This document shows positions 20,358-61,819 of a stretch of 64,000 nt of DNA, piece by piece; position 1 is the stretch's first letter; each line of letters opens with the position of its first letter. The position numbers were made by a program, and so were the translations under genes. The stretch is taken from NCBI RefSeq assembly GCF_009712225.1, contig NZ_WASP01000006.1, positions 1-64,000 of the forward strand, written 5' to 3'. Origin of the DNA: Desulfovibrio sp. (GTDB lineage Bacteria > Desulfobacterota > Desulfovibrionia > Desulfovibrionales > Desulfovibrionaceae). The notes beneath the pieces were generated by a model. It saw only the letters and a list, made by a program, of their open reading frames with translations, did no database searches and was not told the DNA's origin.

Positions 20358-21128
20358 TCAGGCTATGCCCAGCGCGTCGCATACTAGGGCTGCGATCTGC
20401 GTCTGGTCTTGCGGCAGGGGGGGGCTGCTCCGCCAGGTCTCGCCGGTCAGCCACAGGGGCACGCATCGGCAGGCGTCGCTTACATCGTTGTGGTTGCCGT
20501 CGGCAGCCATTCCGTGGTCGCTGGTAACCAGCACTTCATAGCCAGCTTCGGCCCAGCGGGGCAACCAGCGGGCCAGCAGACCGTCGGCCCTGCGGACGGC
20601 GTTGCGGTATTCGCGGCTTTCTGCGCCATAGAGATGCCCGGCATTGTCTATGCCCATGCTGTGTACCAGCAGCAGATGCGGATTGTAGCGCAGCTGAAGG
20701 CTGGCGGCATCGTAAAAAACTTCTTCATCGGGATAGGAATCAGTGCTGTAAAAATGGCCGTGGGCAATGGGCAGGGCGGGGTTGTCCGTGTGCCGGTCGC
20801 GGGCGGGTTCAAAGGGGCCCGCGTTGCACAGCTCACTCATCCAGTGGTAGGCAGCCGCGGCCCTGATCAGACCCGCAGACTGCGCGCGGCTGAAGATATG
20901 GGGCTCCGGGCAGGGGCGCGTGTCGTCATTGCGAGCAATGCCGCTTTCAACCGGGCGCTTGCCGCAGAGCAGGGTGGCGTAAATGGGGCGCGAAGCGGGC
21001 GGCAGCTCTGCTGTAAGCTCGGTGTAGCGGGCCTTGCCCGCATCAACCAGTGACTGCATGTAGCCCATGCAGTGGCGGGCGGTGGAAGCAGCCAGACCAT
21101 CAAGCAGTACAAAGACAATACGCGGCAT
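20358..21128 (-). CDS. Alkaline phosphatase superfamily phosphodiesterase
   Basis: A 256-residue hydrolase of the nucleotide pyrophosphatase/phosphodiesterase type. The first metal Asp is in FVLLDGL near residue 10, the nucleophile region is ELPPASRPIYATLLCGKRP near 40-58, and the second metal set is MGIDNAGHLYG near 160 and VTSDHGM near 200. No signal peptide is seen, so it would act in the cytoplasm. The ATG at 21128 overlaps the stop of the upstream deacetylase gene (TGATG), showing translational coupling. It probably hydrolyses a phosphoester of the glycan made by the neighbouring cluster; this is inference. Confidence 0.75.
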   Translation of the reverse strand: MPRIVFVLLDGLAASTARHCMGYMQSLVDAGKARYTELTAELPPASRPIYATLLCGKRPVESGIARNDDTRPCPEPHIFSRAQSAGLIRAAAAYHWMSELCNAGPFEPARDRHTDNPALPIAHGHFYSTDSYPDEEVFYDAASLQLRYNPHLLLVHSMGIDNAGHLYGAESREYRNAVRRADGLLARWLPRWAEAGYEVLVTSDHGMAADGNHNDVSDACRCVPLWLTGETWRSSPPLPQDQTQIAALVCDALGIA

Positions 21129-22153
21129 CACCAGTCACCCTTGCCAGCAGGGCGCGGGCCAAGATCAAGGCCGGGAGCCTGGGCGCGCAGCTGGGCGGCG
21201 GTGACACCGCGCACAGCGTGGTTGCGGGCAAGCCAGGCCAGAAAATCATAAATCTTGCCATACAGCGCATCTGCGGCCTTCTGGTCGGGGATATTGGGGG
21301 AGCCGCCGGGTAGCATTTCGGACGAGTGCCAGAACAGGCTCAAAACCCTGCCGCCGCGTGCCATGTGCAAACGCGTGGCCGCCCGCATGACGGCTGCGCT
21401 GTGCCACACCGGGTTGGGGCTCAGCGCGCCCCAGAAGTGGAATCTGTCGACCCAGTCGGCCCCTTTTGCGCAGTTGTGCCACAGCCTTGCCAGCGAGCGC
21501 GAAAGCGGAATCTGCGTGACGGGCGATTCCAGCAGGTTGGGGGCGTCGTCCAGCCAGTAGGGGTCGGAAGGCGCAAGAAAGTGGTCTGGCCCGTCATGAA
21601 ATACCCGCAGCGGGCAAACAGAACTGTCAAAGGTAATGCCTTCTTCGGCCAGCAGGGGGCGCACCGATGCCTTCAGATCCCAGCGGCCCATGCGAAAGCT
21701 GGTGAGCGGCGCGCCCTGAAATTCACGTCCCGCGTCAAGCAGGGTGCGCAGACGCTGGCGCAGCAGCTGTCGCGGCAGGCGGTCTGTACGTGTAGGCGGC
21801 CCGTTTTTTTCGGCCTGTGGGGTATTTTGCGCGTCGTCGAGGGGCGGGGTGCTCCAGTGGTGCAGGTGGGCGGCGATTTCTGCATTGCAGTGGTCGCGCA
21901 TCCAGGCCAGATGCTCACAGGCCTCGGCATTGGTAAAAACCGTATGGGCGCAAAACAGCGTCAGCGGAAAGCCCAGTTCGTTGGTGAGCGGGGCAAGTCT
22001 GCGCAGCAGAGCCACATTGCGCACACCGCAGCCGGTGGCGGCGTAATTGCCGGAAAAAAGTCCCTCTTCTTCAACATCGAGGCTTACAATAACGCGCAGT
22101 TCGGGCTCGTAAGGATCCATGGCGCTGTCGAGGGTGTTATTGCTATGAGTCAT
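21128..22153 (-). CDS. Polysaccharide deacetylase-like protein
   Basis: A 341-residue protein of the NodB/polysaccharide deacetylase fold. The early metal-ligand strand is RVIVSLDVEEEGLF near residue 20-30, and AEIAAHLHHWS near 90-100 supplies the HXXXH-like His ligands. No signal peptide is visible, so cytoplasmic action on a nucleotide- or lipid-linked sugar is likely. The start is uncertain: ATG at 22153 is used, but ATGs at 22219 and near 22117 are also in frame and none has a good SD. It is divergent from the glycosyltransferase operon and coupled to the hydrolase downstream. Confidence 0.75.
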   Translation of the reverse strand: MTHSNNTLDSAMDPYEPELRVIVSLDVEEEGLFSGNYAATGCGVRNVALLRRLAPLTNELGFPLTLFCAHTVFTNAEACEHLAWMRDHCNAEIAAHLHHWSTPPLDDAQNTPQAEKNGPPTRTDRLPRQLLRQRLRTLLDAGREFQGAPLTSFRMGRWDLKASVRPLLAEEGITFDSSVCPLRVFHDGPDHFLAPSDPYWLDDAPNLLESPVTQIPLSRSLARLWHNCAKGADWVDRFHFWGALSPNPVWHSAAVMRAATRLHMARGGRVLSLFWHSSEMLPGGSPNIPDQKAADALYGKIYDFLAWLARNHAVRGVTAAQLRAQAPGLDLGPRPAGKGDW

Positions 22154-22384
22154 CAGATAATCATAAGCCCAAGCGCCGCATATGGCAATGAAAAGGCGCG
22201 TATTGCCCCTGCCTTGCATTTGTCATCGTGGATAATGCTGGATAAATGCATATATTTTATGGCGTTGAGCACTCTGTGCCGCGCTGGTCTTGCAAAACCG
22301 GCCGGAATGCATACAATAATGCTTATGGAATAGGGCCTGTTCGACTGCCCCTGTTCATCTACACAGAGTTTTTTAAGGAGCAGC

Positions 22385-23479
22385 ATGACCAAGCCCTTGC
22401 GCGTCCTCTTTCTGATGGAGGATCTTTGTTTTGGCGGCACACAGCGCCAGACTCTTGAACTGGCCCGCCGGCTGGATCGCAGCCGTTTTACGCCTGTCAT
22501 GCTTACTCTTACCGGTCCCACCGATCTGGACAAAGCCGCGCAGGACGCGGGCATAGAGCTGCACCACATGGGGCAGGGCCGCAAGGTTTGGCCCCTGTTT
22601 TTTGCGGCACTTTGCTGGCGTCTGCGTGCCTTGTGCCCTGATGTTATCGTGCCCTGCACGGCCCTGCCCAATATTTGGGGTCGCATATGGGGCAGGCTGG
22701 CCTGGTTGGGCAGCAGTGGGAACGCACCGCTGGTGGTGGGAACCTGCCGTGGTGGCGGCGGCCCCAAGAGGCAGCATGAGCGCTGGCTCTGGCGGCTCAC
22801 GGACCATATGATTTGCAATTCAGAGGCGCTGCGCGAGATTTTGCAGGGTTTTGGTGTGCCTGCGGCACAGCTGAGCTATATACCCAACGGGGTGGATACA
22901 GAATTTTTTGCGCCCACCGGAACAACACCCTCGGCCCGCTCGCCCGAGATTTTGTGCGTGGCGCGGCTTGCAGGCGACAAGGACCACATGACCCTGCTGC
23001 GCGCCTTTGAGCTTGTGCTGCAACGTCACCCCAACGCCCGCCTGCGCATTGTGGGCGATGGCCCGGAAGAAGCCAACCTGCATACTTGGGCCGGGGAGCA
23101 CGTCGCTGGAACCAATGTGGACTTTATCGCAGGGGGGCTCGACATGCGCGCCCACTATGCGGGAGCCCGCGTATTCGCCCTTTCGTCTGTGCGCGAGGGG
23201 CAGCCCAATGTCATTCTTGAGGCAATGGCCTGCGGTCTGCCGGTGTGCGCAACCTCTGTGGGGGGTATACCCCGGCTTGTGGAAGATGGCGTGAACGGTT
23301 TTCTTTCCGTTGCGGGCGATGCCGGAGCGCTGGCGGAAAACTGCTGCAGGCTGCTTGCCGACGGCGAGTTGTGTGATGCCATGGGCCAAGCTGGCCGTGC
23401 CCGCGTGGAAAAGGATTTTTCTTTCACGGCTATGGTAGATGCGCATCAGGGCATTTTTGCCGGGCCGCGCACCTACTGA
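22385..23479 (+). CDS. Glycosyltransferase family 4
   Basis: A 364-residue GT-B glycosyltransferase. The N-terminal acceptor domain opens with VLFLMEDLCFGGTQRQTLELARRL, including the glycine-rich GGTQR loop. The C-terminal donor domain has ILCVARLAGDKDHMTLLRAFELV, RIVGDGPEE and the E-X7-E region SSVREGQPNVILEAMACGLPV. It transfers a nucleotide-activated sugar to a growing glycan or lipid in the cytoplasm. AAGGAG lies 6 bases before the ATG. It is the first gene of the plus-strand glycan operon. Confidence 0.93.
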   Translation: MTKPLRVLFLMEDLCFGGTQRQTLELARRLDRSRFTPVMLTLTGPTDLDKAAQDAGIELHHMGQGRKVWPLFFAALCWRLRALCPDVIVPCTALPNIWGRIWGRLAWLGSSGNAPLVVGTCRGGGGPKRQHERWLWRLTDHMICNSEALREILQGFGVPAAQLSYIPNGVDTEFFAPTGTTPSARSPEILCVARLAGDKDHMTLLRAFELVLQRHPNARLRIVGDGPEEANLHTWAGEHVAGTNVDFIAGGLDMRAHYAGARVFALSSVREGQPNVILEAMACGLPVCATSVGGIPRLVEDGVNGFLSVAGDAGALAENCCRLLADGELCDAMGQAGRARVEKDFSFTAMVDAHQGIFAGPRTY

Positions 23480-23536
23480 TACCTTGCATTAAAAAAACGC
23501 ATTTGGCGCATTGTGCTGAATGCAGCAGGAATACAA

Positions 23537-24085
23537 GTGGAATTGATCTATCAAAAATTGCGTACCCGGGTGCTGCCTGCGGCGAGACGCACGGGCCTGA
23601 AACATGCGGTCCTGTGTCTTGCCTGTTTAGTCTGCCTTGGGGCACAGGCAGTAAGCGCCGCAGAGGCTGCGCCAGAAGCAGCGGCAGCTGCGTCCGTTTC
23701 TGGTGCTACAACGGGCCCAACTGCCGGGCAGGAATCTGCCGCTTCTGACAGCCCAGTGGAAGTGCGCGAGCTGTGGACTGGCTCGCTCTATTCTTCAACC
23801 TACCGTGTGGGCCTGTGTTTTTCCGCGCAGGGCAAGGTTCGCGGGGTGGTGCATCTGCGACTGTACAACGGCAAAGTTGACGTGTACCACATAGATGGAA
23901 CGGTGCAGAACAACGACATTGAAGCGCACCATTCATCCGGCCACAAATTCAAGGGACGCCTGGTTTCGGCAGATACTGTCGAAGGTGTCATAAGTCTGAA
24001 AAACGGCATGAACATAAAGCTTGAAGGCAAACGCGCGCACGATGTGGCTCTTGTGCCTGAGGACTGCGCGCCTCTGCCGCAATAG
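23537..24085 (+). CDS. Secreted protein of unknown function
   Basis: A protein of 182 residues if it starts at the GTG at 23537, which has CAGGAA upstream; a GTG at 23513 is an alternative. A long basic N-region and hydrophobic core (about 20-42, ending GAQAVSAAE) form a Sec signal peptide. An Ala/Pro/Ser/Thr linker follows to about residue 70. The mature C-terminal half is beta-rich with repeating short strands (WTGSLYSSTYRVGLCF, VHLRLYNGKVDVYHIDGTV, FKGRLVSADTVEGVISLKNG). I recognise no named family. It lies between two glycosyltransferase genes and may act on or bind the exported glycan. Confidence 0.65.
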   Translation: MELIYQKLRTRVLPAARRTGLKHAVLCLACLVCLGAQAVSAAEAAPEAAAAASVSGATTGPTAGQESAASDSPVEVRELWTGSLYSSTYRVGLCFSAQGKVRGVVHLRLYNGKVDVYHIDGTVQNNDIEAHHSSGHKFKGRLVSADTVEGVISLKNGMNIKLEGKRAHDVALVPEDCAPLPQ

Positions 24086-24200
24086 CTGTTACCGGGGTAA
24101 CCCGGCCAGTGTTGTGCCTGGTCTGCCAGCGTTTTCTCCGTCATGACCGGTGCCTGTGTTCGAGGTGCCTTTTCTTAAAACGACGAGTAAAGGAGTGCCT

Positions 24201-25376
24201 ATGTTCTGGATATGGTTTTTGCTGGCCACCTCCCAATGCGCTCTGCTGTATATTCTGGCCCGAAGGGGCGAAAGCATGCCCCGCCGCATTCAGGAAGAGG
24301 CCGAGGCCAATAGGGCTGTGCCTGAAGACAAATGGCCCTCTGTGGGGCTGATCGTGCCCGTGGCAGGGCGCGACCCACGCATGGAAGGCGCTTTGCGCAG
24401 CCTGCTGACGCAGGACTACCCCCGGTTTGTGCCGGTGCTGGTCACCGCCGAAGAAAACGAACCCGCCGCCGAGCTTGTGGCCCGCCTCAAGCAGGAATTT
24501 CCCGGCTTGCGTCATGTTGTGGCTGGTACTGCCACCGGTTGCGGACAGAAAAACCACAACAGTCTTCAGGGCATTGCGGCCCTTGGGGATGAAGTGGACG
24601 CTTACGCCTTTTGCGACAGCACCCACATGGCCGACCCCGACTTTTTGCGCCACCTTGTGGCGCCCATGGCCAGGGGCGAGGCCTCGTTCAGCACCGGCTA
24701 CCATGTGGTGGAGCCGCGCGACAACCAGCGCACTACGCTGGCCTACGCGCTTTGTGTCATGCTTATGCGCTACCTGCAGGCCATGTCGGCCTTTACCCAG
24801 CTGTGGGGCGGGGCCATGGCCATGACCCGCGCCGCCTATGTCAAATACGCCGTGGCGCAGCTGTGGGTTGAAAACGTGGTGGACGACTGCTCGCTCAGCG
24901 CCCTGCTGCAGGTGCGCGGAGCCAAGGTAAAGCTTTGCCCCGGTGCTCTGCTGCACACCGATGCCATAAACCATTCCCAGTCCGTTTGGCGGGCGTGGAT
25001 GGACCGGCAGGTGCTGTTTCTCAAGTTTTGCATGCCCGGCCAGTGGAAGCTGCTGGGCCTCATGTGCGTTATGATGGCCCTGCCCATGGTTTGCGCTGGT
25101 CTTGCCCTTTTGGGTTGGGTTTTCAGCGTGGGCAGCGGCGCGGGCGTGTTACTGGCGGTTTTCTGGCTGGCGGCCATAGTGAGCGCACTGCACCTGTGGC
25201 GCGGCCTGCTGGCAAAGCCTGTTCCTCTGCTGCGGTGGTGCCTGGCCTTTGTGGATGCAGTGCGCATGTTCTCTTCCGTTTACTGGCAGAGCATCAAGGC
25301 GTGGAGCATTGTTTGGCACGGCATACGCTATGAGGTCGGCAGGGGCGGCGTTGTGTTGCGTTCTGAACGCAGCTAA
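24201..25376 (+). CDS. Membrane glycosyltransferase family 2 (ceramide glucosyltransferase-like)
   Basis: A 391-residue membrane glycosyltransferase. An N-terminal helix (1-18) is followed by a GT-A catalytic domain (about 45-260) with SVGLIVPVAGRDPRMEGALRSLLTQDYP, a DST metal-site region in AFCDSTHMADPDF, and the catalytic-type ENVVDDCSLS. Two or three membrane helices close the protein (about 275-345). This layout resembles GT21 and hopanoid-type HpnI enzymes that glycosylate lipids. The ATG at 24201 has AAAGGAG upstream; the longer frame from 24150 is rejected. It is the third gene of the glycan operon. Confidence 0.88.
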   Translation: MFWIWFLLATSQCALLYILARRGESMPRRIQEEAEANRAVPEDKWPSVGLIVPVAGRDPRMEGALRSLLTQDYPRFVPVLVTAEENEPAAELVARLKQEFPGLRHVVAGTATGCGQKNHNSLQGIAALGDEVDAYAFCDSTHMADPDFLRHLVAPMARGEASFSTGYHVVEPRDNQRTTLAYALCVMLMRYLQAMSAFTQLWGGAMAMTRAAYVKYAVAQLWVENVVDDCSLSALLQVRGAKVKLCPGALLHTDAINHSQSVWRAWMDRQVLFLKFCMPGQWKLLGLMCVMMALPMVCAGLALLGWVFSVGSGAGVLLAVFWLAAIVSALHLWRGLLAKPVPLLRWCLAFVDAVRMFSSVYWQSIKAWSIVWHGIRYEVGRGGVVLRSERS

Positions 25377-25618
25377 CCCGCACATCAGGCGGGCTGCCGG
25401 ATACTGTTGTTGCCGCCCGGGGCAAAGGGCAAATCTGGATTTTGACATGCACCTGTAGTGTCGTGTATTGTCTTTTGCCCTTTTGCCTCGGGTGGCGAAC
25501 AGCTCCATATGGTCTGGCGTTCAATCCGGCAGCTGGATGCGGCAATGGCGTTGCGCATGTGCGCGGCAGGAGCCATGGCTTTTTTTTACTGTTTTATTGT
25601 CAGAGTAGTGATTGCACC

Positions 25619-26809
25619 ATGATCGCAATGTCAGACCTTATTCGCGTCAGCCTCAGGCAAGTTGTGCGTCAGCGCGGCTTTGGGGTGATGCTTTCTATCG
25701 CGCTGGGCATCACGGCGTTTATCGTCCTGGCGGTGCTTGGCCGCGAGATCCGCTACAAGGTTGGTCAGGACATGGTGCTTATGGGTGGCGTAAACGTCAT
25801 CCAGGTATACATGGACGATGCCCAGTACCCGGGCCAGCCTGACCGCGAATTTTACCCCGAAACCATCGAGGCCCTTTCGCAGTTGCCCGGTGTGAGCCTT
25901 GTGAGTCGCAACCTGCGCGACAGCAAGCCATTCAGCATTCGCGGCACTGGCGAACGTACACTGGCCGTGGATTTTATTGGTATCGATCAGTATTTTGCCG
26001 AGGTGTATTCCATCGACCTTGTGGCAGGGCGGCAGCTCGACGCCGCCGATGTGGACGCCCACCGGCGTGTATGCCTGCTGGGCAGGGATGCGGCCAGAAA
26101 TCTCTTTGGCGGCTCGGAAGAATCCATTGGCAAACTGCTGTTTCTCGAACAGGACGTTTTTGAGGTCGTGGGCGTTGTAAGCGGCGTAATGCTTGGCAGC
26201 TGGAGCCAGGGCGGCTTTTTGCCCTATACCACCATGGCCGACCGTAACTGGGGCCGTGGCAAGGTGCGGCGGCTCTTCATACGCGCCATCGGCTGGGAAG
26301 ACGTGCCCCCGCTTGTAAAAGTTATTCCCCAGGTGGTGCGCGAGCATCAGTCGGCTCCGTATATCGTTGTGCAAACCCAGGAAGACCAGCTCAAGCGCAT
26401 CAAAACCACCTTTATGTGGGTTGAAGCTCTGCTGTGGCTTGGTATTGCCGCATCGCTCATGTTGGGCGGCTTTGGCATCTGGTACGGCACATTTGCGGCG
26501 GTTCGCGCCAGAACGCGCGAAGTGGGGCTTAAAAAGGCCATGGGCGGCTCGGATGTGGACATCCTTGCGCAGTTTCTGGCCGAGGCCCTGTGCAAATCGG
26601 TTGCAGGCGGCATACTGGGCATAGTGATTGGCTGCGCTCTGGTCGAAATCGGTTCCCTTTCACTGGGAACGGGCATTTCGTATTCGCTGCTGTTTGCCAG
26701 CAGTATTGGCAGTATTGTTTTTTCTGCCGTTATCGGTATCGCAGGCGGTTTGTATCCTGCCGTTCAGGCTAGCCGCATGGACGTGGTAACCGCTCTGCGG
26801 TTTGAATAG
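25619..26809 (+). CDS. FtsX/MacB-type ABC transporter permease
   Basis: A 396-residue permease with the MacB topology: one N-terminal helix (about 23-43), a large periplasmic domain (about 45-270) and three C-terminal helices (about 275-390). The FtsX signature is near the end (RARTREVGLKKAMGGSDVDILAQFLAEAL). It would work with the ABC ATPase domain encoded next. Such exporters move lipoproteins, lipids, peptides or glycolipids by a mechanical process. The start at 25619 is uncertain; another ATG is at 25628 and SD signals are weak. The neighbourhood suggests a glycolipid or polysaccharide-related substrate. Confidence 0.88.
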   Translation: MIAMSDLIRVSLRQVVRQRGFGVMLSIALGITAFIVLAVLGREIRYKVGQDMVLMGGVNVIQVYMDDAQYPGQPDREFYPETIEALSQLPGVSLVSRNLRDSKPFSIRGTGERTLAVDFIGIDQYFAEVYSIDLVAGRQLDAADVDAHRRVCLLGRDAARNLFGGSEESIGKLLFLEQDVFEVVGVVSGVMLGSWSQGGFLPYTTMADRNWGRGKVRRLFIRAIGWEDVPPLVKVIPQVVREHQSAPYIVVQTQEDQLKRIKTTFMWVEALLWLGIAASLMLGGFGIWYGTFAAVRARTREVGLKKAMGGSDVDILAQFLAEALCKSVAGGILGIVIGCALVEIGSLSLGTGISYSLLFASSIGSIVFSAVIGIAGGLYPAVQASRMDVVTALRFE

Positions 26810-26870
26810 TACACAATGCGCGGGCGCGCCCGCGTTGCAGCGGCCTGGCCGCGCACGGACAAGGTGGATC

Positions 26871-28853
<1,983 letters not shown>

Positions 28854-28872
28854 GCCCCGCCGGGAGAGCGTC

Positions 28873-30330
28873 ATGGATTTTGACGGAGTGCGCGTATTGG
28901 TTGTGGGCGATGTGATGCTTGATCATTACATTGCCGGTCAGGTGAAAAGAATATCACCAGAGGCTCCCGTGCCCGTGGTATCTGTGGCAAAGCGGTGGTC
29001 TGTGCCTGGCGGCGCGGCCAACGTGGCCCGCAACCTGGTTCGCCTGGGCGTGGATGTGGCCGTGGCTGGCGTGGTGGGGCAGGATGCCGCCGCCGACGAC
29101 CTGCGCGCGGCCCTTGCCGCCGAGGGCATTGTGGATGGCCTTGCCGCCTCTGCCACCCGCCGCACTACCTGCAAAACACGCGTGCTCGCGCAAGGGCAGC
29201 AGTTGCTGCGTCTGGATGAGGAAGTATGCGCGCCCCTTTCGGCAGAAGAAGCCGAGGCGCTTGGCGCCCGGGTACTCTCGCTTTTGCAAGGGCGGCAGGC
29301 CGTAATTTTGTCAGACTACGCCAAGGGCGTGCTGCTTGAAACGGCCAACGGCATCAATTTGTGCCGCATTGTTATTGAAGAAGCGCGCCGTCTGGGCATC
29401 GCCGTACTGGTCGACCCCAAGGGCAGCGACTGGCAGCGGTATGCTGGTGCGCACTGCGTTACGCCCAATGCGGGTGAATTTGATGTGGCCTGCGGGCTTG
29501 AACCCGGCGCAAAACTCGACAGACCCCGGCGTGAATCGCTCGCCGCAGAACTGCGAGCCCGACACGGCATCGAGCGGCTGCTTGTAACCCGCGGCCCCAA
29601 GGGCATGGTGTTGTTCAGCCCCGGCGAAGCGCCCGTGTACTGCCGCGCCAGCGTGCGCGAGGTTGCCGATGTTTCTGGCGCTGGCGATACCGCCATTGCC
29701 ACTCTGGCTGCCTGCGTGGGCAAGGGTTTGCCCTGGGCCGAGAGCATGCATCTGGCCAATGCCGCGGCGGGTGTTGCCGTGGGCAAGATGGGCACGGCCC
29801 CGGTTTCGCTGGCCGAGCTTAACGAGGCCCTGCGCGAACAGGCAGACAATCCCAAACTTTTTGACCTGCCCGGCCTTGTGGAAAAAACTGAAGAGTGGCG
29901 CAGAAAGGGCGAAACCATCGTATTTACCAACGGGTGTTTTGACCTGCTGCACCCCGGCCACATTTCGCTTATCCGCCAGAGCGCCGCTCAGGGAGACCGC
30001 CTGATTGTGGGCCTCAACAGCGATGCCTCCGTGCGCCGCCTCAAGGGGCCCACGCGTCCCATCCAGAACGAAAACAGCCGCGCGCTCCTGCTGGCGGCTC
30101 TGTCCGATGTCGATGGCATTGTGCTGTTTGACCAGGATACCCCCCTTGAACTTATCACGGCCTTGCGCCCCGACGTACTGGTTAAAGGCAGCGACTACAC
30201 CATCGGTTCGGTTGTGGGCGCTGATGTCGTGCAGCAGGGGGGTGGCAGGGTGCACCTTGCCCGTCTGGTAGACGGTTGCAGCACAACCGGCATTGTGCGC
30301 AAGATCGATAACCAGAAGGATGTTCCGTAA
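28873..30330 (+). CDS. hldE: Bifunctional heptose-7-P kinase / heptose-1-P adenylyltransferase
   Basis: HldE (485 residues) makes ADP-heptose for the lipopolysaccharide inner core. The N-terminal PfkB-type sugar kinase (about 1-315) has VVGDVMLDHYIAG, the GGAANVARNLVRLG motif and the catalytic ADVSGAGDTAIATLAA. The C-terminal nucleotidyltransferase (about 340-485) has FTNGCFDLLHPGHI and ends with the usual KGSDY and ST-type stretch. Length and domain order match the full bifunctional enzyme. GGGAG precedes the ATG, 19 bases after the ABC-GT gene, so it belongs to the same operon and ties the cluster to envelope glycan synthesis. Confidence 0.96.
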   Translation: MDFDGVRVLVVGDVMLDHYIAGQVKRISPEAPVPVVSVAKRWSVPGGAANVARNLVRLGVDVAVAGVVGQDAAADDLRAALAAEGIVDGLAASATRRTTCKTRVLAQGQQLLRLDEEVCAPLSAEEAEALGARVLSLLQGRQAVILSDYAKGVLLETANGINLCRIVIEEARRLGIAVLVDPKGSDWQRYAGAHCVTPNAGEFDVACGLEPGAKLDRPRRESLAAELRARHGIERLLVTRGPKGMVLFSPGEAPVYCRASVREVADVSGAGDTAIATLAACVGKGLPWAESMHLANAAAGVAVGKMGTAPVSLAELNEALREQADNPKLFDLPGLVEKTEEWRRKGETIVFTNGCFDLLHPGHISLIRQSAAQGDRLIVGLNSDASVRRLKGPTRPIQNENSRALLLAALSDVDGIVLFDQDTPLELITALRPDVLVKGSDYTIGSVVGADVVQQGGGRVHLARLVDGCSTTGIVRKIDNQKDVP

Positions 30331-30354
30331 CCTGCAGACAGCCGGCAACAGTCT

Positions 30355-31353
30355 ATGCAACGCATATTCGCAGCCGATATAGGCGGAACAAACGCACGCT
30401 TCGCCTTGTTCACCGGGCACGAGGGCAGCCTCGGGCTTGACACTGTGGTGTGGGAAAAGTCTGCTGATCTGCGCACTGCGGAAGATCTGCTGCAAATCAT
30501 GCAGCGGCAGTTGCAGACCCCCCTTGCAGAAGGTGACATGCTGGTCATTGCCCTGGCTGGCCCCACGCACGGATTGCGAGGCAAGCTTACAAACGGGCCA
30601 CTGCAGGTTGATCTTGGCGGGGTGGGGCAGCGATACGGCCTTTCGTGCTGTCTGTTGATCAATGATTTTACCGCTCAGGCCTTTGCCGCGCTGACGCCCC
30701 GGGGAGCAGGGGCCAAAGTAGTACGCGGCAGGGCACTTCCCGATACAGAATCCACACAGACTAAAGCCGTATTTGGCGCTGGAACGGGCCTTGGAGCGGC
30801 ATCGCTTGTTTGCTGCGGCGGTGAGGCCGGTTTCAGGCACTGGCTGGCTGTTCCCTCTGAGGCCGGGCATGCGCCCTTTGCCTTTGTGGGCGCAGAAGAA
30901 CATGCCTATCAGGGCTTTCTGGCGCGCGATCTTGGGTGCGACATGCCCACGGCTGAAAATGTGCTTTGCGGCGAAGGCCTTTCCCTGCTGCACTATTATC
31001 TGAGCGGGCAGTTTTATTACCCCGCCATGGTGGGTGAGCAGGTTCTTTCACACGACACCCCCACCCTTCACTGGTACGCCCGTTTTTTGGGGCGCTTTTG
31101 CCGTCAGTGGATATTGAACACCCTAAGCCGCGGAGGGCTGTGGATCGCTGGTGGCATTGTCGCCAAAAATCCGCAGTGCGTTGAGCATCCAGCCTTTTTG
31201 CAGGAACTTGCCGCTGGGGGGGATGTGGGCGGAATAGTGCACGCCACGCCAATTTTGCTGACAACCGATGCCAACAGCGGTCTGTGGGGGGCTGCGCGTG
31301 CGGGCCTTGAACACCTGCGTGGGCAGACTCTGGCCGCCAGTGCCAAGGGGTAG
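30355..31353 (+). CDS. glk: Glucokinase
   Basis: A 332-residue glucokinase of the Glk (PF02685) family, phosphorylating glucose to glucose-6-phosphate with ATP. The phosphate-binding loop is AADIGGTNARFALF near residues 6-19, the second glycine-rich motif is VFGAGTGLGAASLV near 140, and the substrate region LPSEAGHAPF-like VPSEAGHAPFAFVG lies near 165. The C-terminal LWIAGGIVAKN fits the adenosine motif. It follows hldE by 24 bases, so it may supply glucose phosphate to the glycan pathway. Confidence 0.92.
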   Translation: MQRIFAADIGGTNARFALFTGHEGSLGLDTVVWEKSADLRTAEDLLQIMQRQLQTPLAEGDMLVIALAGPTHGLRGKLTNGPLQVDLGGVGQRYGLSCCLLINDFTAQAFAALTPRGAGAKVVRGRALPDTESTQTKAVFGAGTGLGAASLVCCGGEAGFRHWLAVPSEAGHAPFAFVGAEEHAYQGFLARDLGCDMPTAENVLCGEGLSLLHYYLSGQFYYPAMVGEQVLSHDTPTLHWYARFLGRFCRQWILNTLSRGGLWIAGGIVAKNPQCVEHPAFLQELAAGGDVGGIVHATPILLTTDANSGLWGAARAGLEHLRGQTLAASAKG

Positions 31354-40942: not shown

Positions 40943-41386
40943 TTAATTTGTGGCCGATGCACGTTATTAAGCAATAGGTCACCGCCACCTGTATTTTTTG
41001 CTTACGTCTTTACTGCTTGAAGCAGCATGCGTGACAGTTCATAACACGCCTTTTCCTCAGTAAAAAATATCCCATATTCTGCTAGAATGCCCACAGTCGT
41101 GTGCGTCCAGTATTTGCTGTCCCTGTGGGATTACATCTTTGATCTCCACCTCATGTCCTCGCCCTCCATGTGTCGCGCCGCATGGGGTGGTTCGCCATGC
41201 CTACATGAGCTCGCGACCACACGGCGGATATCTGCTCGCACTGATGTCAGCGCCTCAGCAGCATAAAAATAAATGGTCTCTCAAAAAAAAGATACATCAT
41301 CACATTTTTGCAATTTTGTATGGCTGTGGTTTTGTCAGTCAATAATTTTATTGTTGAATATAAAATAGTTATATTTTCAATATGAA

Positions 41387-41402
41387 TGGCACGGTAGTTG
41401 CT
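41387..41402 (+). promoter_or_regulatory. Sigma-54 promoter of the TauE-sulfotransferase operon
   Basis: TGGCACGGTAGTTGCT matches the TGGCAC-N5-TTGCW consensus perfectly, with the -24 GG at 41388-41389 and the -12 GC at 41400-41401. Transcription should start near 41413. This excludes the ATG at 41382 as the TauE start and supports the one at 41439. Upstream are AT-rich palindromes: CAATAA-TT-TTATTG at 41340-41353 and an imperfect TTGAATAT...TTTTCAA repeat at 41354-41380; these could bind the activator or IHF but lie unusually close to the promoter. Confidence 0.88.
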
Positions 41403-41438
41403 CAATGCAAGACAACGTCATGCATTCGGAGCATATTT

Positions 41439-42182
41439 ATGTTCATTCTTCTTGCGTTAATTGCCGTTCTTGTAGGCGCGCTCATTGGCACGGTCGGCGT
41501 TGGCGGTATTCTGCTCATTCCCGCCCTCAACGGCTTTGCCGACCTTCCCATTCATGTCTCCATGGGAACGTCCTTGTTCAGCTTCATCTTCACTGGAGTA
41601 CTGGGCACATGGCTATACCAGCGTCACGGAAGCATAGACTGGGGCATTACCATCCCTGTATGTGCCGGGGCGCTGCTGTCAGGCTATGCCGGGGCGTTAT
41701 GCAACGGCTACGCCTCGCCGCGCCTACTGGGGGTGCTCCTAGGCGTCGTCATCATCTTTGCAGGCATTTATGCCCTGCTGCCTCCCCACCAAAATTCCCC
41801 AGAGAACCATAACCGGCGGCGTCTGCCCCTATTGCTGGGCATAGGTGCACTGGTGGGTTTTGGTTCAGGCCTTACTGGCGTGGGCGGTCCTGTGCTTTCG
41901 GTACCGCTTATGGTCATTTTGGGATTTGCCCCGCTCACGGCCATCGCTACAAGCCAGGTCATTCAGATCACGGCAGCGCTTTCCGGTACGTTAGGCAATG
42001 TTTCCAACGGTGCCATCAATTTTTCGGTTGCGTCATGGGTGACGGTACTGGAGCTTGGCGGTGTCATTCTTGGCGCGCGCTTGGCCCATACGGTATCTAC
42101 CGCAACTCTGAAAAAAACTGTTTCTGTGGTGTGTATACTCGTCGGCAGCTTTGTGCTGGCGAGGGAGTTACTGCAATTCTAA
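41439..42182 (+). CDS. TauE/SafE family anion exporter
   Basis: A 247-residue inner-membrane protein with about eight helices in two repeats, each with the TauE/SafE glycine signature: GTVGVGGILLIPAL near residue 20-35 and GLTGVGGPVLSVPL near 145-160. The start at 41439 (MFILLALIAVLVGALIG) has GGAG 8 bases upstream and lies downstream of the sigma-54 promoter. It is a different member of the family from the TauE at 11759. The sulfotransferase follows 18 bases later, so the transporter probably moves a sulfur-containing or organic anion linked to that enzyme. Confidence 0.9.
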   Translation: MFILLALIAVLVGALIGTVGVGGILLIPALNGFADLPIHVSMGTSLFSFIFTGVLGTWLYQRHGSIDWGITIPVCAGALLSGYAGALCNGYASPRLLGVLLGVVIIFAGIYALLPPHQNSPENHNRRRLPLLLGIGALVGFGSGLTGVGGPVLSVPLMVILGFAPLTAIATSQVIQITAALSGTLGNVSNGAINFSVASWVTVLELGGVILGARLAHTVSTATLKKTVSVVCILVGSFVLARELLQF

Positions 42183-42200
42183 TTTTACAAGGAGTACTAT

Positions 42201-43355
42201 ATGCCCATTACACTTGATGAACGTCCCATATTCATGATCGGTGCGGAACGCTCTGGCACCACGCTGGTTATGGCGCTTCTCGGTAGTCATTCACGCATCG
42301 CTGTCCCGGAGGTCGTGTGGTATTATCCCCGCTTTTATCCGTATCTGCATACTTACGGTGATCTTGGCAAGTCCGAGAATTTCCGTACGTTAGCCAGCGA
42401 AATGGTCTTTGGTCTTAAGACCCCCCTGTGGGGTATGAAGGTTAACCCTCGGACAATCCTCGACGAGGTCATTGAATTAGCCCCTGAGCGCAGTTTCGCA
42501 GGGCTTTACGCAGCCATGCACCAGCGCTTCGCTCAATACAGCAACAAACCACGCTGGGGCGAAAAAACACCGCACAATCTCTATTTTATTGATGCGATGC
42601 ACCGCGATTTTCCCAATGCCCAGTTTATTTACATTACTCGCGACGGGCGCGATTCCTGCGTGGACTACATGGAATCCTCTTTTGGCCCCACCAATATTTA
42701 CTGCGCCGCCCACTCTTGGAAGCGCTGCTGGAATGCAGTTAAAGACTGGCGTAAACCGCTCTCGGACAAAGGGCTGTGGCTGGATGTGCGCTATGAAGAC
42801 CTTGTGCGCAAACCAGACCAAATCATGCGTGGTGTATGCGAATTCCTTGGCGAAAATTTTGAAACGGGCATGTTCGACTTCTACAAGACTGACATGGCCA
42901 AAGCGCGTGGCGCTTCGCGCGATCACGCACCTCTGGGGCACGCCATCAGCGATAAGTATGTGGGCATTTATAAAGACTTGTTGAGTCAGCGTGATCAGCG
43001 CATTTTTGCTGCCGTTGCAGGAAAAGAACTTGAGGAAGCCGGTTACAAGAATGATGTAACGCCTGAAATGCCTTCCGAGAAAATGATTAGCAAATACGTA
43101 GAATTTGATGGACGCATCCGCGCTGCTACGCTGGACGGTTTCGAAGGGCACATTGTATTTGAAAGCTACAACGATTGGCTTATTAACCAGCGCGAAGAAC
43201 GCCGCAAAAAAGGTATTTGGGCCGAAGCCGACAATCCTCATGCATTCCCGCAGGGCGACCCGGATGAGGAAATGATCATGGGCATGCGGGCCTGGAGTAC
43301 GTGGAAGAAACATTTTTCCATCAAGCGTCAATATGTAGGCGATGTCGTGCTGTAG
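42201..43355 (+). CDS. Sulfotransferase family protein
   Basis: A 384-residue protein with the PAPS-dependent sulfotransferase fold. The 5'-phosphosulfate loop is FMIGAERSGTTLVMALLGSH near residues 11-30, and the 3'-phosphate motif is YITRDGRDSCVDYMES near 143-158. It would transfer sulfate from PAPS to an alcohol, sugar or phenol acceptor in the cytoplasm; no membrane segment or signal is seen. AAGGAG precedes the ATG. The length exceeds typical 270-300 residue bacterial enzymes because of a C-terminal extension of about 100 residues. A PAPS-using enzyme in a dissimilatory sulfate reducer, inside a transport operon, is unusual. Confidence 0.85.
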   Translation: MPITLDERPIFMIGAERSGTTLVMALLGSHSRIAVPEVVWYYPRFYPYLHTYGDLGKSENFRTLASEMVFGLKTPLWGMKVNPRTILDEVIELAPERSFAGLYAAMHQRFAQYSNKPRWGEKTPHNLYFIDAMHRDFPNAQFIYITRDGRDSCVDYMESSFGPTNIYCAAHSWKRCWNAVKDWRKPLSDKGLWLDVRYEDLVRKPDQIMRGVCEFLGENFETGMFDFYKTDMAKARGASRDHAPLGHAISDKYVGIYKDLLSQRDQRIFAAVAGKELEEAGYKNDVTPEMPSEKMISKYVEFDGRIRAATLDGFEGHIVFESYNDWLINQREERRKKGIWAEADNPHAFPQGDPDEEMIMGMRAWSTWKKHFSIKRQYVGDVVL

Positions 43356-43368
43356 TGGAAGCGAACTT

Positions 43369-43400
43369 CCCCCTGCAGGTCATAACTACCCTGCAGGGGG
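43369..43400 (+). promoter_or_regulatory. Perfect intercistronic hairpin
   Basis: CCCCCTGCAGG at 43369-43379 pairs perfectly with CCTGCAGGGGG at 43390-43400 around a 10-base loop. It lies between the sulfotransferase and the transporter genes and has no T-run. It probably protects the upstream mRNA or lowers read-through into the transporter gene. Confidence 0.72.
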
Positions 43401-43465
43401 TTGAGGCAAACTTCCAGCCCTTTTCAAAATTTCTTCAAAATTGGAATTTTTTTAGAGAGGTAAGT

Positions 43466-44998
43466 ATGCTGCAGGATTCACCATCTACTACGCCTTGCCC
43501 TCGTTTTGGACTAGCCCGCTTTTTGACTACTCTGTGGGGTAACGCCGACATGGCGGGAGTATCTCCAAAGAAATCATTTCTTGGTTTTATTCTTGCGTGG
43601 GTTGTTTTTTTGGGCATCATATTATTCATGCCACAACCGGAAGGGCTCTCACAGCAAGGCAAGGCGACCTTGGCGGTGGTTGCATGGGCCAGCATAATTT
43701 GGGTTTCCGAAGCCATCCCTGTGGGCATAACCGGGGTAGCGATTCCCATGCTGCTTACCCTGAGCGGGGCCGTTGACAAATTTCCTAAAGCCGTTTCAGG
43801 CTTTACCTCCAATGCATATTTTATCTGCATGATAGCGTTTATCATGGCCGCCATCATACAGGTCGCAGGTATAGATAAACGCATTGCCATAACCCTGCTG
43901 CACAAACTGCGCATTAAAAGCGCCAACAGCACCATTATGGGCCTCTTCGGCGTCAATTTTATTCTTTCCATTATTGTCCCCGGAGCGAATCCCCGCGGAG
44001 CGCTGTTGCTGCCCATTGTTAACGGCATCACGAATCTTTTTGGTGATACGCCAGCCGAGCGCGCCGTAAAAAAGCATATTATGATTCAGGTGCTCGTCTA
44101 TGGTTCCATGATTTCCGGTATGTGCATCCTTACTTCGCATTTGCCCAACCTTGTTCTCGTGGGTCTGTTCAGTAAAGAGTTGCATCTTGATATATCCTAT
44201 CTTGATTGGTTCATTCTGCAATGGCCATATCTTGGTATGTTTTTTCTGACTAACTTCTGGCTGCGCTCACATTTCAAGACAAAAAATATGGGAATTGAAG
44301 GCGGAGCCCAGGTGTTGACAGAGCAGTTCAAGCGCCTGCCCCAGATTTCGCAAAGCGAGATTCTCATCCTGCTTATTTTTGGATTTACTGCAACACTGTG
44401 GATGACACAAAGCTGGCACCATATTCCCAGCCATGTTGTAGCCATGCTCGGCCTGATTTTACTTTTTATCCCGGGAATTTTCCCCTTCACCTGGAAACAG
44501 ATTCAGGAACGCACCATATGGGGAACACTGATCATGTTGGGCGGGGCCCTCTCCATGTCTCAGTGCATGGGCAGCTCCGGTCTTGCTGCATGGCTCGCTG
44601 AACATATACACATTTTTGCCGTTGGGCATCCGTGGTGGCTGATCTTGCTTATCATCATGGTTGGCACGCACATCATCCGTCTTGGCATGCTGTCTAATGT
44701 GGCTGCGGTCAGCTTGTTTGCTCCTATTCTTGTCAAACTGGCCCCGACTCTCGGCCTGCATCCCGTGGCTTTTACCATGCTTGTGGCCGACACGGATACC
44801 TTTGCTTACATTCTGCCCACGCAGATCACTGTTGCGGTAATTGCATACAGCAGTAACACTTTTTCCATGGCTGACTATGCAAAGGCGGGGTGGGTGTCTG
44901 TCTTGATGGCTATTGGATACGGCATATTCGTTATGGTCCCTTGGTATGCATTTCTTGGGCTGCCAGTGTGGGATCCAACCGCCCCGTGGCCTTTCTAG
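43466..44998 (+). CDS. DASS/SLC13 family anion transporter
   Basis: A 510-residue secondary transporter of the divalent anion:sodium symporter family, with about twelve helices. Landmarks are WVSEAIPVGITGVAIPMLLT near residues 75-95, the GANPRGALLLPIVNG stretch near 175, and the C-terminal pseudo-repeat with LSNVAAVSLFAPI and AYSSNTFSMADYAKAG. Family members carry dicarboxylates, citrate, sulfate or organosulfonates. AGAGAGG precedes the ATG at 43466; the frame open from 43301 overlaps the sulfotransferase and is rejected. As third gene of the sigma-54 operon it probably imports the substrate or counter-ion of the pathway. Confidence 0.92.
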   Translation: MLQDSPSTTPCPRFGLARFLTTLWGNADMAGVSPKKSFLGFILAWVVFLGIILFMPQPEGLSQQGKATLAVVAWASIIWVSEAIPVGITGVAIPMLLTLSGAVDKFPKAVSGFTSNAYFICMIAFIMAAIIQVAGIDKRIAITLLHKLRIKSANSTIMGLFGVNFILSIIVPGANPRGALLLPIVNGITNLFGDTPAERAVKKHIMIQVLVYGSMISGMCILTSHLPNLVLVGLFSKELHLDISYLDWFILQWPYLGMFFLTNFWLRSHFKTKNMGIEGGAQVLTEQFKRLPQISQSEILILLIFGFTATLWMTQSWHHIPSHVVAMLGLILLFIPGIFPFTWKQIQERTIWGTLIMLGGALSMSQCMGSSGLAAWLAEHIHIFAVGHPWWLILLIIMVGTHIIRLGMLSNVAAVSLFAPILVKLAPTLGLHPVAFTMLVADTDTFAYILPTQITVAVIAYSSNTFSMADYAKAGWVSVLMAIGYGIFVMVPWYAFLGLPVWDPTAPWPF

Positions 44999-45357
44999 TA
45001 ATTCCTTCACGGGATACACAGTGTTATGTATGACTGTAAGAAAGGAATTTTTGCGCAAGGGATATCACCCGATGATCTCCAGCAGGAATAAAAAGCGTAT
45101 TTCTTGAGAGATAGCCGAAGGCCACTGTGAAAACTCTTCAGGGTAAAGAGGAACCTGTTGTTGGCAGCATCACCCCGGCTTGCCGCGGCTGGGAATGACA
45201 TTGTATACAACCACTGTGCGATTTTTTCTTGTTTCATATCTTGTAATGTACTGCTTTCTTTCTCCTTACGACGGTCGTTGTATGACATCGACCGTCGTTT
45301 CTTGTATTGATACGCAGAATGCGATAGTGTTGGTGCAATAACAGATCGGGAGTATGT
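44999..45357 (+). promoter_or_regulatory. Intergenic region with a perfect hairpin before the activator gene
   Basis: ACGACGGTCG at 45268-45277 and CGACCGTCGT at 45289-45298 form a perfect 10-base inverted repeat with an 11-base loop, followed by TTCTTGTATT. It may terminate the transporter operon or act as an operator for the sigma-54 activator gene 60 bases further on. No other gene is visible in the 359 bases. Confidence 0.5.
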
Positions 45358-51816: not shown

Positions 51817-52772
51817 GCTGTTCCCCTTTGGCTATAGGTTAGCAAGAACTGCAACCACCTCACATGCAGTAAAAAAAGAGGGCCTGTTCTTAGGGATGGA
51901 TTGATTGGTTGTTTGCCGTCATTTCCATGAGATCTCCTACAAATAGCAACTGTCATTCAGCGAGGTTGTTCAATCCGCCTGAGTTTTATGGCACGAATAA
52001 CTAGCTATGTAAATGATAATGATATTCATTATCATTATATTTATTCATCTGCTTACATCTGTGATCATATATCTTTCAATAGCTGGCAGCTGACCCCAAG
52101 GGGAGGACCTCTATAAACCAGTAATATGTGTATAGTTTTTTATAAAAACAGCAGACTGTTACGAGGCATTTACGTGGAAGGCTCAGGTGTTAAAAAATTC
52201 CCGCCAAGAAATCGTAAGTCTTCCTCACCAGTATGAATGCTACGTGCAGAGCAGTCTGCCATTGATGTCAAACCAAACACGAAAACTCAAATGAGAGGAT
52301 AAAGCCTTCCTCCTGCGCTCATGGCAAACCCTGACTTAAACATGGTCTGTAGAATGCTATAGCCGATCAGCCAAGGCGATTGCGTTAATATCCGCTACCA
52401 AGAGGAAACATTTTTTATCTGGTGTTATCATCATAAAACTGCATAATAGCTCTATATCAGTGATATTTATTCTATGAATTTGCAATGCCTTTAATAAAAG
52501 CCGGTATCAAAGATATCACATAGCTGGCGCCGATCAACAGTTAGTACTTCAGTCGCAGATTGCCTCAATATCCCAAGAATAGCTCGTTCCAGAACCTGCT
52601 TCGTTTTATTTTTATGCGCTTAATATCGGGGGCGTTCTAACCTTAGTTGCGTTCGAGATAATTTGTCGTGCAAGTTTGTACTTGTTTGTTATTGATGTTA
52701 GATAGTTATACTATAGTGGCGCATCTGATGAATATTAAAACATATCAGTAAATGTAATTGTCATTGAATATG
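51817..52772. other. Long intergenic region upstream of katA
   Basis: These 956 bases, AT-rich, hold the katA promoter region and the Fur box listed separately. A minus-strand stretch at about 52270-52420 reads partly like coding sequence with several stops, but I cannot identify it. No intact gene is seen. Confidence 0.4.
52015..52033. promoter_or_regulatory. Fur-type operator upstream of katA
   Basis: GATAATGATATTCATTATC differs at one position from the 19-base Fur consensus (GATAATGATAATCATTATC). With its flanks it forms an 11-base inverted repeat around TAT (52012-52036). It lies about 200 bases upstream of the katA start and no gene lies on the other side within 700 bases, so katA is the probable target. 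Confidence 0.82.
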
Positions 52773-53717
52773 CTACAATTTGAGCAATAATTCCTCTGTA
52801 AGCTGCGCTGCATATTCTTTAATTATGCTTACTAGTCTGTTTATATATACATCATTTTGCCTGTGGTCAGAAATAATTATTCCATAATCGTTGCATGGAA
52901 GGACATGGTCAACAGGAATTGCCACAATGTCATCCAAGAATTTATTTCTAATATCAAGGAGACATATCTCATCAACAACAGCAGCACCAAGGCCTTGGCG
53001 CACTAAATCATATGTGACAAGGTAGTTGTTAGTAGAGATTGTGGAGTTAATCTCATATAATTGCAGCATATTGAGGCGTTCTTGAGAGGCGATACTCGAT
53101 AGAGTGATGTCTTCAACATTGAACCCAATAAGAGGCAATCGGCGCAATTCTTCCAACGAGGGTTTGGCTGAAATGCCCCAAGGGCTATCCTTGGGTAAAA
53201 TAAGTACTCTTCTTGCGGTGAACAAAACTTTCATTTTTTCTTCGCTTGGCAAAGTCAAACCGCCAGCAGCTACCATATCAACTCTGCCGTCATGCAGAGC
53301 GCTTAATCCCTGAACGCAAGTACACTCAAAAATTTTTATATTTGAATTGTTAAAACTGGTAAACTGCGCAATAGATTGCGTAAGAAAAGGTGAAAAGGCC
53401 ATGTTAGTTGCTATTGTTATGTTAGTTCTGAAGTTGTTTTTATAAGAAAAAATATCTAAATTCATCTTTTCAAATAAAATGAAAATTTCTACTGCCCAAT
53501 TTAAAAGTTTTATTCCGGATTGTGTAAGGATTAATTTTTTTTTTGATCTGTCAAAAAGAGCAATTCCAAGTTCATGCTCCAGACTGCGTATCTGGTAACT
53601 AATTGTCGATACATTGCGATGCATATGCTCGGCAGCCTTACTAAGGTTGCCAGTTTTCGCCACAAAGTAAAATCCCCTGAGCCACTGCAAAAAATCTCCA
53701 CTTCGCTCTCTAATCAC
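52773..53717 (-). CDS. LysR family transcriptional regulator
   Basis: A 314-residue LysR regulator. The N-terminal helix-turn-helix is GNLSKAAEHMHRNVSTISYQIRSLEHELGIALFDR (about 23-57), followed by a linker helix and a two-lobed effector domain (about 90-300). Cysteines are present in FECTCVQG and VDEICLLD but not in the OxyR arrangement, so peroxide sensing is not implied. It is strongly AT-rich compared with the core genes, which suggests transfer. It stands alone; the catalase is downstream on the same strand but more than 900 bases away. No target can be named. Confidence 0.9.
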   Translation of the reverse strand: MIRERSGDFLQWLRGFYFVAKTGNLSKAAEHMHRNVSTISYQIRSLEHELGIALFDRSKKKLILTQSGIKLLNWAVEIFILFEKMNLDIFSYKNNFRTNITIATNMAFSPFLTQSIAQFTSFNNSNIKIFECTCVQGLSALHDGRVDMVAAGGLTLPSEEKMKVLFTARRVLILPKDSPWGISAKPSLEELRRLPLIGFNVEDITLSSIASQERLNMLQLYEINSTISTNNYLVTYDLVRQGLGAAVVDEICLLDIRNKFLDDIVAIPVDHVLPCNDYGIIISDHRQNDVYINRLVSIIKEYAAQLTEELLLKL

Positions 53718-55706: not shown

Positions 55707-55752
55707 AGGATCCATTACGTAATCTTGCAAATTACTTGAAGGTAAATGAAAT

Positions 55753-61815: not shown

Positions 61816-61819
61816 GACG

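Follow-up and report, generated by a model that had tools for sequence, protein, structure and literature searches.

Type VII ATP-binding cassette (ABC) systems (MacB of MacAB-TolC, LolCDE, FtsEX, and YbbAP-TesA) are the closest described relatives of the system examined here, an FtsX/MacB-type permease followed by an ABC ATPase fused to a GT4-type glycosyltransferase (GT). The pair lies in a window of 64,000 nucleotides from Desulfovibrio sp. (RefSeq assembly GCF_009712225.1, contig NZ_WASP01000006.1, positions 1 to 64,000). It shares with these systems the motifs of the nucleotide-binding domain (NBD) and a MacB_PCD permease with four hydrophobic segments, and its relatives in sister genera adjoin MacA and TolC genes as in MacAB-TolC; it differs in that ATPase and permease are separate proteins, the ATPase has a C-terminal module of GT-B fold, and the neighbors are lipid- and glycan-synthesis genes. 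In Wzm/Wzt, according to the portions of two sources consulted (PMC11231755, PMC9445017), the ATPase of an envelope exporter likewise bears a glycan-related module at its C terminus; here, however, the module is of GT-B fold rather than the Wzt module and the permease is of FtsX/MacB_PCD (type VII) rather than Wzm type, which places the locus outside that family. The third comparison is the Caulobacter ceramide cluster, given in part of PMC11324152 as aasR-cerR-acpR-spt ... lptF2/lptG2 ... cerS: sister-genus clusters share with it serine-palmitoyltransferase (SPT)-like and GNAT (cerS-like) genes and, in some cases, CerR-like genes, whereas the second LptF/G copies of Caulobacter are replaced in position by a MacB-type permease-ATPase-TolC-MacA set. 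Our leading reading, put forward tentatively and held somewhat short of an even chance, is that the Desulfovibrio pair exports a glycosylated sphingolipid-type lipid as a type VII system and that its ATPase uses the attached GT fold as a recognition module. What was observed directly is sequence, conservation, linkage, co-occurrence, and losses of residues and of a domain; the substrate, the order of steps, the partners, and the recognition role are inferred.

A first-pass annotation of this stretch had described a MacB/LolD-type ATPase fused to a GT4 enzyme directly after an FtsX permease, and both points were borne out. An uninterrupted open reading frame (ORF) at 26802-28853 (+), encoding 683 aa, spans both domains, with ABC_tran (PF00005) at residues 44-192 (E 1.6e-34, Pfam) and Glycos_transf_1 (PF00534) at residues 498-657 (E 3.6e-37, Pfam), joined by a match to PF13692. 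The ORF opens with TTG at 26802, from which residues are numbered throughout, and ATG 26871 (ORF residue 24) is the start common to orthologs, so that the fusion protein occupies 26871..28853 (+). It comprises the NBD (residues 24-255, 26871..27566), a GT-B N-terminal, acceptor-side domain (residues 268-466, 27603..28199), and a GT-B C-terminal, donor-side domain (residues 496-683, 28287..28850). Immediately upstream lies the permease gene (25619..26809, +; MacB_PCD, PF12704, and FtsX, PF02687), with a likely start at ATG 25619. The ABC-GT fusion is real: 61 further full-length cases rule out the concern, raised beforehand, that a sequencing error had removed a stop between the domains.

Within a sample of 79 genomes from the genus, the end of the ATPase gene could be read in 69 (hereafter assessable), of which 60 have the full fusion, seven have the ATPase with the GT N-domain only, and two have the ATPase alone. 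Left out of these counts were six genomes cut at contig ends (G020, G035, G075, G083, G095, and G096), one with the locus split across two contigs (G011), and three without a permease match (G078, G080, and G085); both halves of the fusion are present on separate contigs in G011 and G035. The permease was found in 76 of the 79 genomes, the three misses being 67 to 81% complete. Two genomes of a neighboring genus (G231 and G232) carry the full fusion too, giving 62 in all. In the sister genera, the ATPase is unfused in 19 of 19 loci read and ends 2 to 20 residues past its domain; these are the loci with a readable ATPase among 20 fetched from the 47 non-genus genomes that have a strong permease match and lie outside g41 and g56 (in g56, represented by G346 and G347, the contigs end). 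A broad scan of about 85,000 species with exact peptide words, considered for the best 80 of 104 stretches (79 loci), returned 51 loci of other groups that match the ATPase part alone, up to query residue 282. The survey covers relatives of the fusion in the window, distant ABC-GT fusions of other origin lying outside its scope, and the openly licensed literature, judged from titles and abstract beginnings of the matches listed, yielded neither such an ABC-GT fusion nor a MacB-type sphingolipid exporter.

In a tree of permease and ATPase, every fusion-bearing or truncated form belongs to a single clade (support 0.83), within which the nine truncated forms make up a subclade of their own (support 0.99). 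The fusion probably arose once, and the sequences are most simply read as a single fusion event followed by a single donor-domain loss and two additional N-domain losses, the last two sitting on weakly supported branches (0.71 and 0.28). As the truncated forms are one clade, they count as one evolutionary observation and not several. In one Desulfovibrio genome (G025, L125:5734-9564), a permease and an ATPase that are paralogous (46% and 56% identity) and unfused adjoin a larger ABC protein; this pair is sister to the fusion clade in the tree.

Judged from sequence features, permease and ATPase would form a type VII (MacB/LolD-like) ABC system, the features of that class being found in both NBD and permease. 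Walker A, the LSGGEQQR signature, Walker B, and the H-loop region are invariant across 19 aligned orthologs, and a simple hydropathy scan gives four hydrophobic segments in the permease, with MacB_PCD between the first two. The best NCBIfam models for the ATPase are DarD, LolD, L_ocin_972, FtsE, MacB, and DevA, all below cut-off. LolCDE itself is not matched, as the LolD model scores 189.2 bits (cut-off 307.75) and the cluster has a single permease gene.

The GT part is predicted to adopt a GT-B fold, its model matching GT4 structures of the BshA/MshA/PimA type. The fold is common to WcaL/EpsE/stp2-type GT4 enzymes, with longer free matches 30-38% identical, whereas the fused form has diverged at specific positions. 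Residues were compared between 61 of the 62 full fusions (G015, which touches a contig end, was omitted) and 30 distinct free homologs, namely 35 sequences less duplicates and less L275 (a fused protein without the donor domain), of which 20 come from sister genera and 10 are the two paralogs on contig C2 of the source genome and their genus kin. W276, F284, W394, and R504 are each present in 30 of 30 free homologs and in 0, 0, 0, and 2 of 61 fused forms, respectively; E282 and H391 are each present in 24 of 30 free and in none of the 61 fused forms. Fused-specific gains were found at Y316 (60/61 fused, 0/30 free), L318 (61/61, 1/30), P319 (60/61, 5/30), L298 (61/61, 0/30), and W381 (59/61, 0/30), and the GT N-domain contains a fused-specific motif, Y316-x-L-P-L/M-A/P-V-R323, whose Y-x-L-P stretch persists in 7 of 7 proteins that lack the donor domain, with one P-to-S change. 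The donor-site arginine of GT4 enzymes is catalytic; of the arginine-lysine arrangement of that site (G-R..K-G), R504 is kept in 2 and K509 in 55 of the 61 fused forms, and the acidic pair eight residues apart (E/D-x7-E) is kept, position 589 being D or E in 58 of 61 and E597 being retained in 60 of 61. The fused GT forms are monophyletic on a long branch, and mean pairwise identity is 0.86 for the ABC domain, 0.73 for the permease, 0.47 for the GT N-domain, and 0.51 for the GT C-domain.

This residue pattern fits a module given a new binding role, and we think that the fused GT mainly recognizes a glycan, by analogy with the carbohydrate-binding module of Wzt. An ordinary active transferase, as originally supposed, is at odds with the loss of four positions that are invariant in the free homologs. 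Several observations weigh against a recognition role. K509 is kept in 55 and D589 in 54 of the 61 fused forms (four more have E); since these and E597 remain, binding of a donor or even catalysis may still occur. Most assessable genomes, 60 of 69, retain the donor domain. The 30 free sequences are not independent, 10 of them being two C2 paralogs with their genus kin. The structure model of the whole fusion has a mean pLDDT of 67 with a poor ATPase half, for which reason no claim on domain packing is made. Given the partly retained donor site, the fused GT may instead be a transferase that has changed and is still active. In its full form, which corresponds to the coupling originally proposed, this alternative holds that the fused GT has altered specificity and adds a sugar at the exporter mouth, the cargo being a sphingolipid-type or other glycolipid. 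We consider this unlikely, though not to be dismissed lightly: it would accommodate the BshA/MshA/PimA-type model, the conserved K509, D589, E597, and glycine motifs, the whole domain kept in most of the genus, and the position of the neighboring glycan genes away from the exporter in most genomes without the donor domain (see below), and it has to contend with the near-complete loss of R504 and W276/F284/W394, the much faster divergence of the GT domains than of the ATPase, and a clade of nine genomes that lives without the donor domain.

The genes around the fusion form a Desulfovibrio-type cluster, the named records of close relatives being mostly labeled Desulfovibrio. On the same strand (+) as permease and fusion lie genes for a soluble GT4 glycosyltransferase (GT4a, 22385..23479; Pfam; the top-scoring NCBIfam models, stp2 and EpsE, stay under their cut-offs), a secreted protein (Sec, 23513..24085), and a membrane GT2 that is HpnI/ceramide-glucosyltransferase-like (GT21-like; 24150..25376, with a possible later start at 24201; PF13641/PF13506). 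Divergent from them are a putative NodB-like deacetylase (DeAc, 21128..22219, -) and an AlkP-superfamily phosphodiesterase-like protein (20358..21131, -, PF01663). Sec is predicted to be an eight-stranded beta barrel of avidin/lipocalin-like shape; with Foldseek TM of about 0.4-0.5, VIA Z of 10-13 to designed barrels and avidins, and about 8 to lipocalins, the claim is limited to barrel shape. HldE (28873..30330, +; Pfam, NCBIfam) and, as a neighbor only, glucokinase (30355..31353, +) follow the fusion. The GT2, GT4, AlkP-type hydrolase, secreted protein, and hldE named in the first-pass annotation are all at the locus, to which the previously unnamed glucokinase can be added. The deacetylase fares less simply, as the gene is present and its linkage conserved and no Pfam or NCBIfam match backs the label, which is drawn from NodB-like motifs recognized by eye and from that linkage. 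DeAc has homologs within clusters of sister genera, and the source genome has another at a second locus.

The linkage of these genes was examined across the genus. Whether the fusion always sits with its permease had been posed as a check, and it does so in 54 of 54 loci having upstream sequence (58 fusion-found loci scanned, from two overlapping collections). Where 4.5 kb or more of sequence precedes the permease, 50 of 51 full-fusion loci have the complete set of GT4a, Sec, and GT2 in it, the single exception being G027, which is without GT4a. For GT2 by itself, a position at most 1.6 kb upstream of the permease was seen in 58 of 59 assessable full loci (at most 600 nt in 52) and in 1 of 8 assessable truncated loci, G347 not being counted. 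Given 6.5 kb of upstream sequence, DeAc is found in 35 and the PF01663 gene in 23 of 46 full-fusion loci. In G027 (80% complete), the full-length fusion (L126) has a donor domain degraded around the G-x..K-G and D-x7-E motifs, and synthase and GNAT matches (described below) are missing from the genome.

None of the six truncated loci with 4.5 kb upstream has any of GT4a, Sec, and GT2. A further member of the truncated clade with a shorter stretch, G010, keeps all three beside the exporter, which indicates that the donor domain went first. The idea that GT2 was lost together with the donor domain proved wrong: GT2 is present in 74 of 79 genus genomes, and of the 8 genomes without GT2 next to the permease, 7 carry it elsewhere, 3 of these together with GT4a and Sec and the other four with GT2 alone in its stretch (GT4a and Sec were not sought genome-wide); in the remaining genome, G086 (86% complete), GT2 was not found. 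Taken as a whole, the original interpretation is partly supported. Its coupling of glycan work to export gains support from the existence of the fusion and from the separation of GT4a-Sec-GT2 from the exporter in the clade without the donor domain. The suggested lipopolysaccharide (LPS) or lipoprotein substrate is not supported. Because hldE follows the fusion in just 32 of the 56 full-fusion loci with enough downstream sequence, it was judged an inconstant neighbor and not a core member, and it is absent from the sister clusters scanned bar one weak partial match (L301), so an LPS/hldE pathway was set aside; the exporter family is linked instead to SPT-, ceramide-synthase-, and CerR-like genes.

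This linkage is most evident in the sister genera. Of 345 genomes of the order, 36 have an SPT-like gene; a distance of 66-326 nt separates it from the permease gene in 33 of them (all but G143, G145, and G235), and it commonly precedes the unfused pair. Among the SPT-adjacent loci scanned, TolC and MacA genes are present in 14 of 14 and GNAT is nearby in 8 of 14. The sister-type SPT scores 400.5 bits against the curated SPT model, below its cut-off of 640. Outside the genus, permease and GNAT are both present in 40 genomes, the permease only in 11, GNAT only in 2, and neither in 213, as counted from two genome samples differing by three and with permease matches of ~1e-70 or better; in g49 and g36, among the genomes listed, a strong permease match and GNAT coincide without exception, in three genomes of each genus. 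Fisher values for these counts, for SPT adjacency, and for the position of GT2 disregard relatedness (the truncated forms being one clade) and carry no weight here. Along almost its entire length, the GNAT shares 31% identity (E 1.7e-52) with a Caulobacteraceae GNAT whose contig also has AMP-binding, CerR-like, SPT-like, and LptF/G genes, in a layout that matches the Caulobacter ceramide region as presented in part of PMC11324152. A search of PDB sequences returned no match to the GNAT. In another genus, a GNAT-CerR pair was seen at L324:6530-8991 (G157, 89% complete), without a permease ortholog at 1e-30.

Several genomes join the exporter family to the glycan genes of the Desulfovibrio locus. 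On a single contig, the bridge genome G224 has one run of synthase-MP591 (a membrane protein)-permease-ATPase-TolC-MacA and a second of Wzx-GT2-GT4a-DeAc-free GTf-AsnB-GNAT-CerR, where free GTf denotes an unfused homolog of the fused GT. G189 shows GNAT-CerR-free GTf-DeAc-GT2 with Wzx opposite, G285 and G312 have GNAT-CerR beside AsnB-free GTf-GT2, and G227 has DeAc-GT4a-free GTf on the contig of its SPT-linked exporter. Homologs of GT2, GT4a, Sec, and DeAc occur in sister clusters, and several sister contigs hold the free GTf, GT2, GT4a, DeAc, and the permease-ATPase pair together. It had been foreseen that separate ABC and GT genes with unrelated neighbors in close relatives would undermine the proposal; the genes are indeed separate in sister genera, but the neighbors are related in several. 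Since the free homologs and the exporter share a neighborhood there, the fusion links domains of prior neighbors.

Within Desulfovibrio itself, related amino-lipid genes lie elsewhere in the genome. An alpha-oxoamine synthase is present in 77 of 79 genus genomes (1e-60; identity at least 67% in 76), including all 55 good genomes, and is 51-52% identical to the exporter-linked synthases of G224 and G217, and GNAT is present in 78 of 79. Each of the six GNAT loci read (L303 and L306-L310; five genus loci and one of the neighboring genus) has a CerR-like gene beside GNAT, so the pairing of a cerS-like GNAT with a CerR-like reductase that marks ceramide synthesis is found here. In the source genome, the synthase is on contig C2, in a run of synthase-GT-DeAc homolog-GT-AsnB with an HlyD/OEP pair ~4 kb from the synthase gene, and GNAT and the CerR-like gene are on C5. 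As an observation in its own right, this C2 region (L305, G000:C2:99000-118500) constitutes a second glycan locus, with Wzx-like, HlyD, OEP, alpha-oxoamine synthase, two free GTf, and the DeAc homolog; its AsnB is near the XrtA-type amidotransferase model, below that model's cut-off. In part of a Black Sea metalipidomics study (PMC11334938), 1-deoxyceramides are tentatively ascribed to Desulfobacterota and/or Bacteroidota, and 1-deoxyceramide-like lipids are plausible in the wider group, if unproven for Desulfovibrio.

Because the exporter adjoins SPT-like genes in sister genera and related amino-lipid genes occur elsewhere in Desulfovibrio, its cargo is probably a glycosylated sphingolipid-type lipid rather than LPS or a lipoprotein. 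The following points count against that assignment. In 71 loci of the genus and neighboring genus, no SPT, synthase, GNAT, CerR, MacA, TolC, or AsnB homolog was found within 10 kb of the exporter, and in the source genome the pathway genes are spread over three contigs. A sister-type SPT link inside Desulfovibrio was rejected, as none of the 36 SPT-positive genomes belongs to the genus; the more distant C2 synthase was found instead. This synthase scores better against BioF (342.8 bits, cut-off 426.45) than against SPT (278.1 bits, cut-off 640), and with its best match to BioF and both scores below cut-off, the term sphingolipid is not established. Outside the genus, 11 of 51 permease-bearing genomes are without GNAT at the threshold used, including 6 of 7 of g32, whose sampled member G185 stands for the sister genus nearest Desulfovibrio in the tree. 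GNAT itself was found in one of the three Caulobacteraceae genomes searched, the other two giving no match.

Two further explanations bear on the cargo. The exporter may have been repurposed in Desulfovibrio for a lipoprotein, an LPS-related lipid, or a small molecule, the sphingolipid-type linkage of the sister genera being history. The empty 10-kb surroundings just described agree with this, as do ATPase scores to the LolD, DarD, and FtsE models in addition to MacB, the presence of hldE after the fusion in over half of the loci, and the persistence of the permease where GT4a-Sec-GT2 is not adjacent; yet nearly every genome of the genus, down to those of 1.4 Mb, has the synthase and GNAT, and GT2, GT4a, Sec, and DeAc have homologs in the sister clusters, so we rate repurposing as rather improbable. 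The best NCBIfam model for GT2 is HpnI (TIGR03472), and the CerR-like gene resembles HpnA (63.7 bits, cut-off 367.65), from which one might suppose an HpnI-type hopanoid transferase and an exporter of glycosylated hopanoids. The HpnI score, however, is 78.8 bits, far below the cut-off of 310, and squalene-hopene cyclase (TIGR01507) is found in 0 of 79 genus genomes, by a search whose control was weak (2 of 14 genomes matched, none over cut-off). A hopanoid pathway is accordingly disfavored and seems very improbable indeed.

Under the sphingolipid-type reading, the alpha-oxoamine synthase on C2 would make a long-chain base, and the ceramide-synthase-like GNAT with the CerR-like reductase on C5 would complete an amino-acid-derived, N-acylated lipid. 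Sugars would be attached by the membrane GT2 first and by GT4a and free GT4s thereafter, and DeAc may trim an acetyl group. The permease-ATPase pair would pull the glycosylated lipid out of the inner membrane, and the Sec barrel with MacA/TolC-type partners would take it up in the periplasm. The fused GT fold, a relative of the free GT4s of the neighborhood, would now serve glycan or glycolipid recognition and recruitment, and could couple ATP use to correctly glycosylated cargo in a Wzt-like manner. In Caulobacter, part of PMC11087976 places Spt and bCerS in the cytoplasm and CerR in the periplasm, so lipid export is required there. More broadly, it is conceivable, though doubtful at this stage, that Desulfovibrionaceae export sphingolipid-type lipids by a dedicated MacB-type machine and that in Desulfovibrio a pseudo-glycosyltransferase acts as a glycan checkpoint on its ATPase.

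If true, the recognition module would be of a new kind for an ABC motor and would carry the Wzt idea, an export motor that reads its own glycan, over to another class of transporter; the machine as a whole would be a candidate explanation of how sphingolipids exit the bacterial inner membrane. The consulted part of PMC11324152 states that sphingolipid transit from inner to outer membrane is unknown and offers extra Lpt parts and a flippase as Caulobacter candidates; a MacB-type exporter beside SPT-like genes in 33 of 36 genomes would be a concrete, testable alternative to them. Moreover, the genus offers natural domain-deletion variants (full, N-domain only, and no GT) with which the role of an ATPase-fused glycan module could be dissected.

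Elsewhere in the window, positions 41382-47307 encode in a row a TauE-type exporter, a sulfotransferase (PF13469), a sodium:sulfate symporter-type protein, and a PrpR-type sigma-54 regulator. Positions 52000-60000 have a low G+C content, 33-40% against 47-54% in adjoining 2-kb blocks, and are possibly acquired DNA; the genes there include a hybrid histidine kinase (56818-59355), an ORF without a Pfam match (55753-56709), and a LysR regulator. Beyond this segment, a CobT-like protein with a VWA-type C terminus is encoded at 60118-61923 (-).

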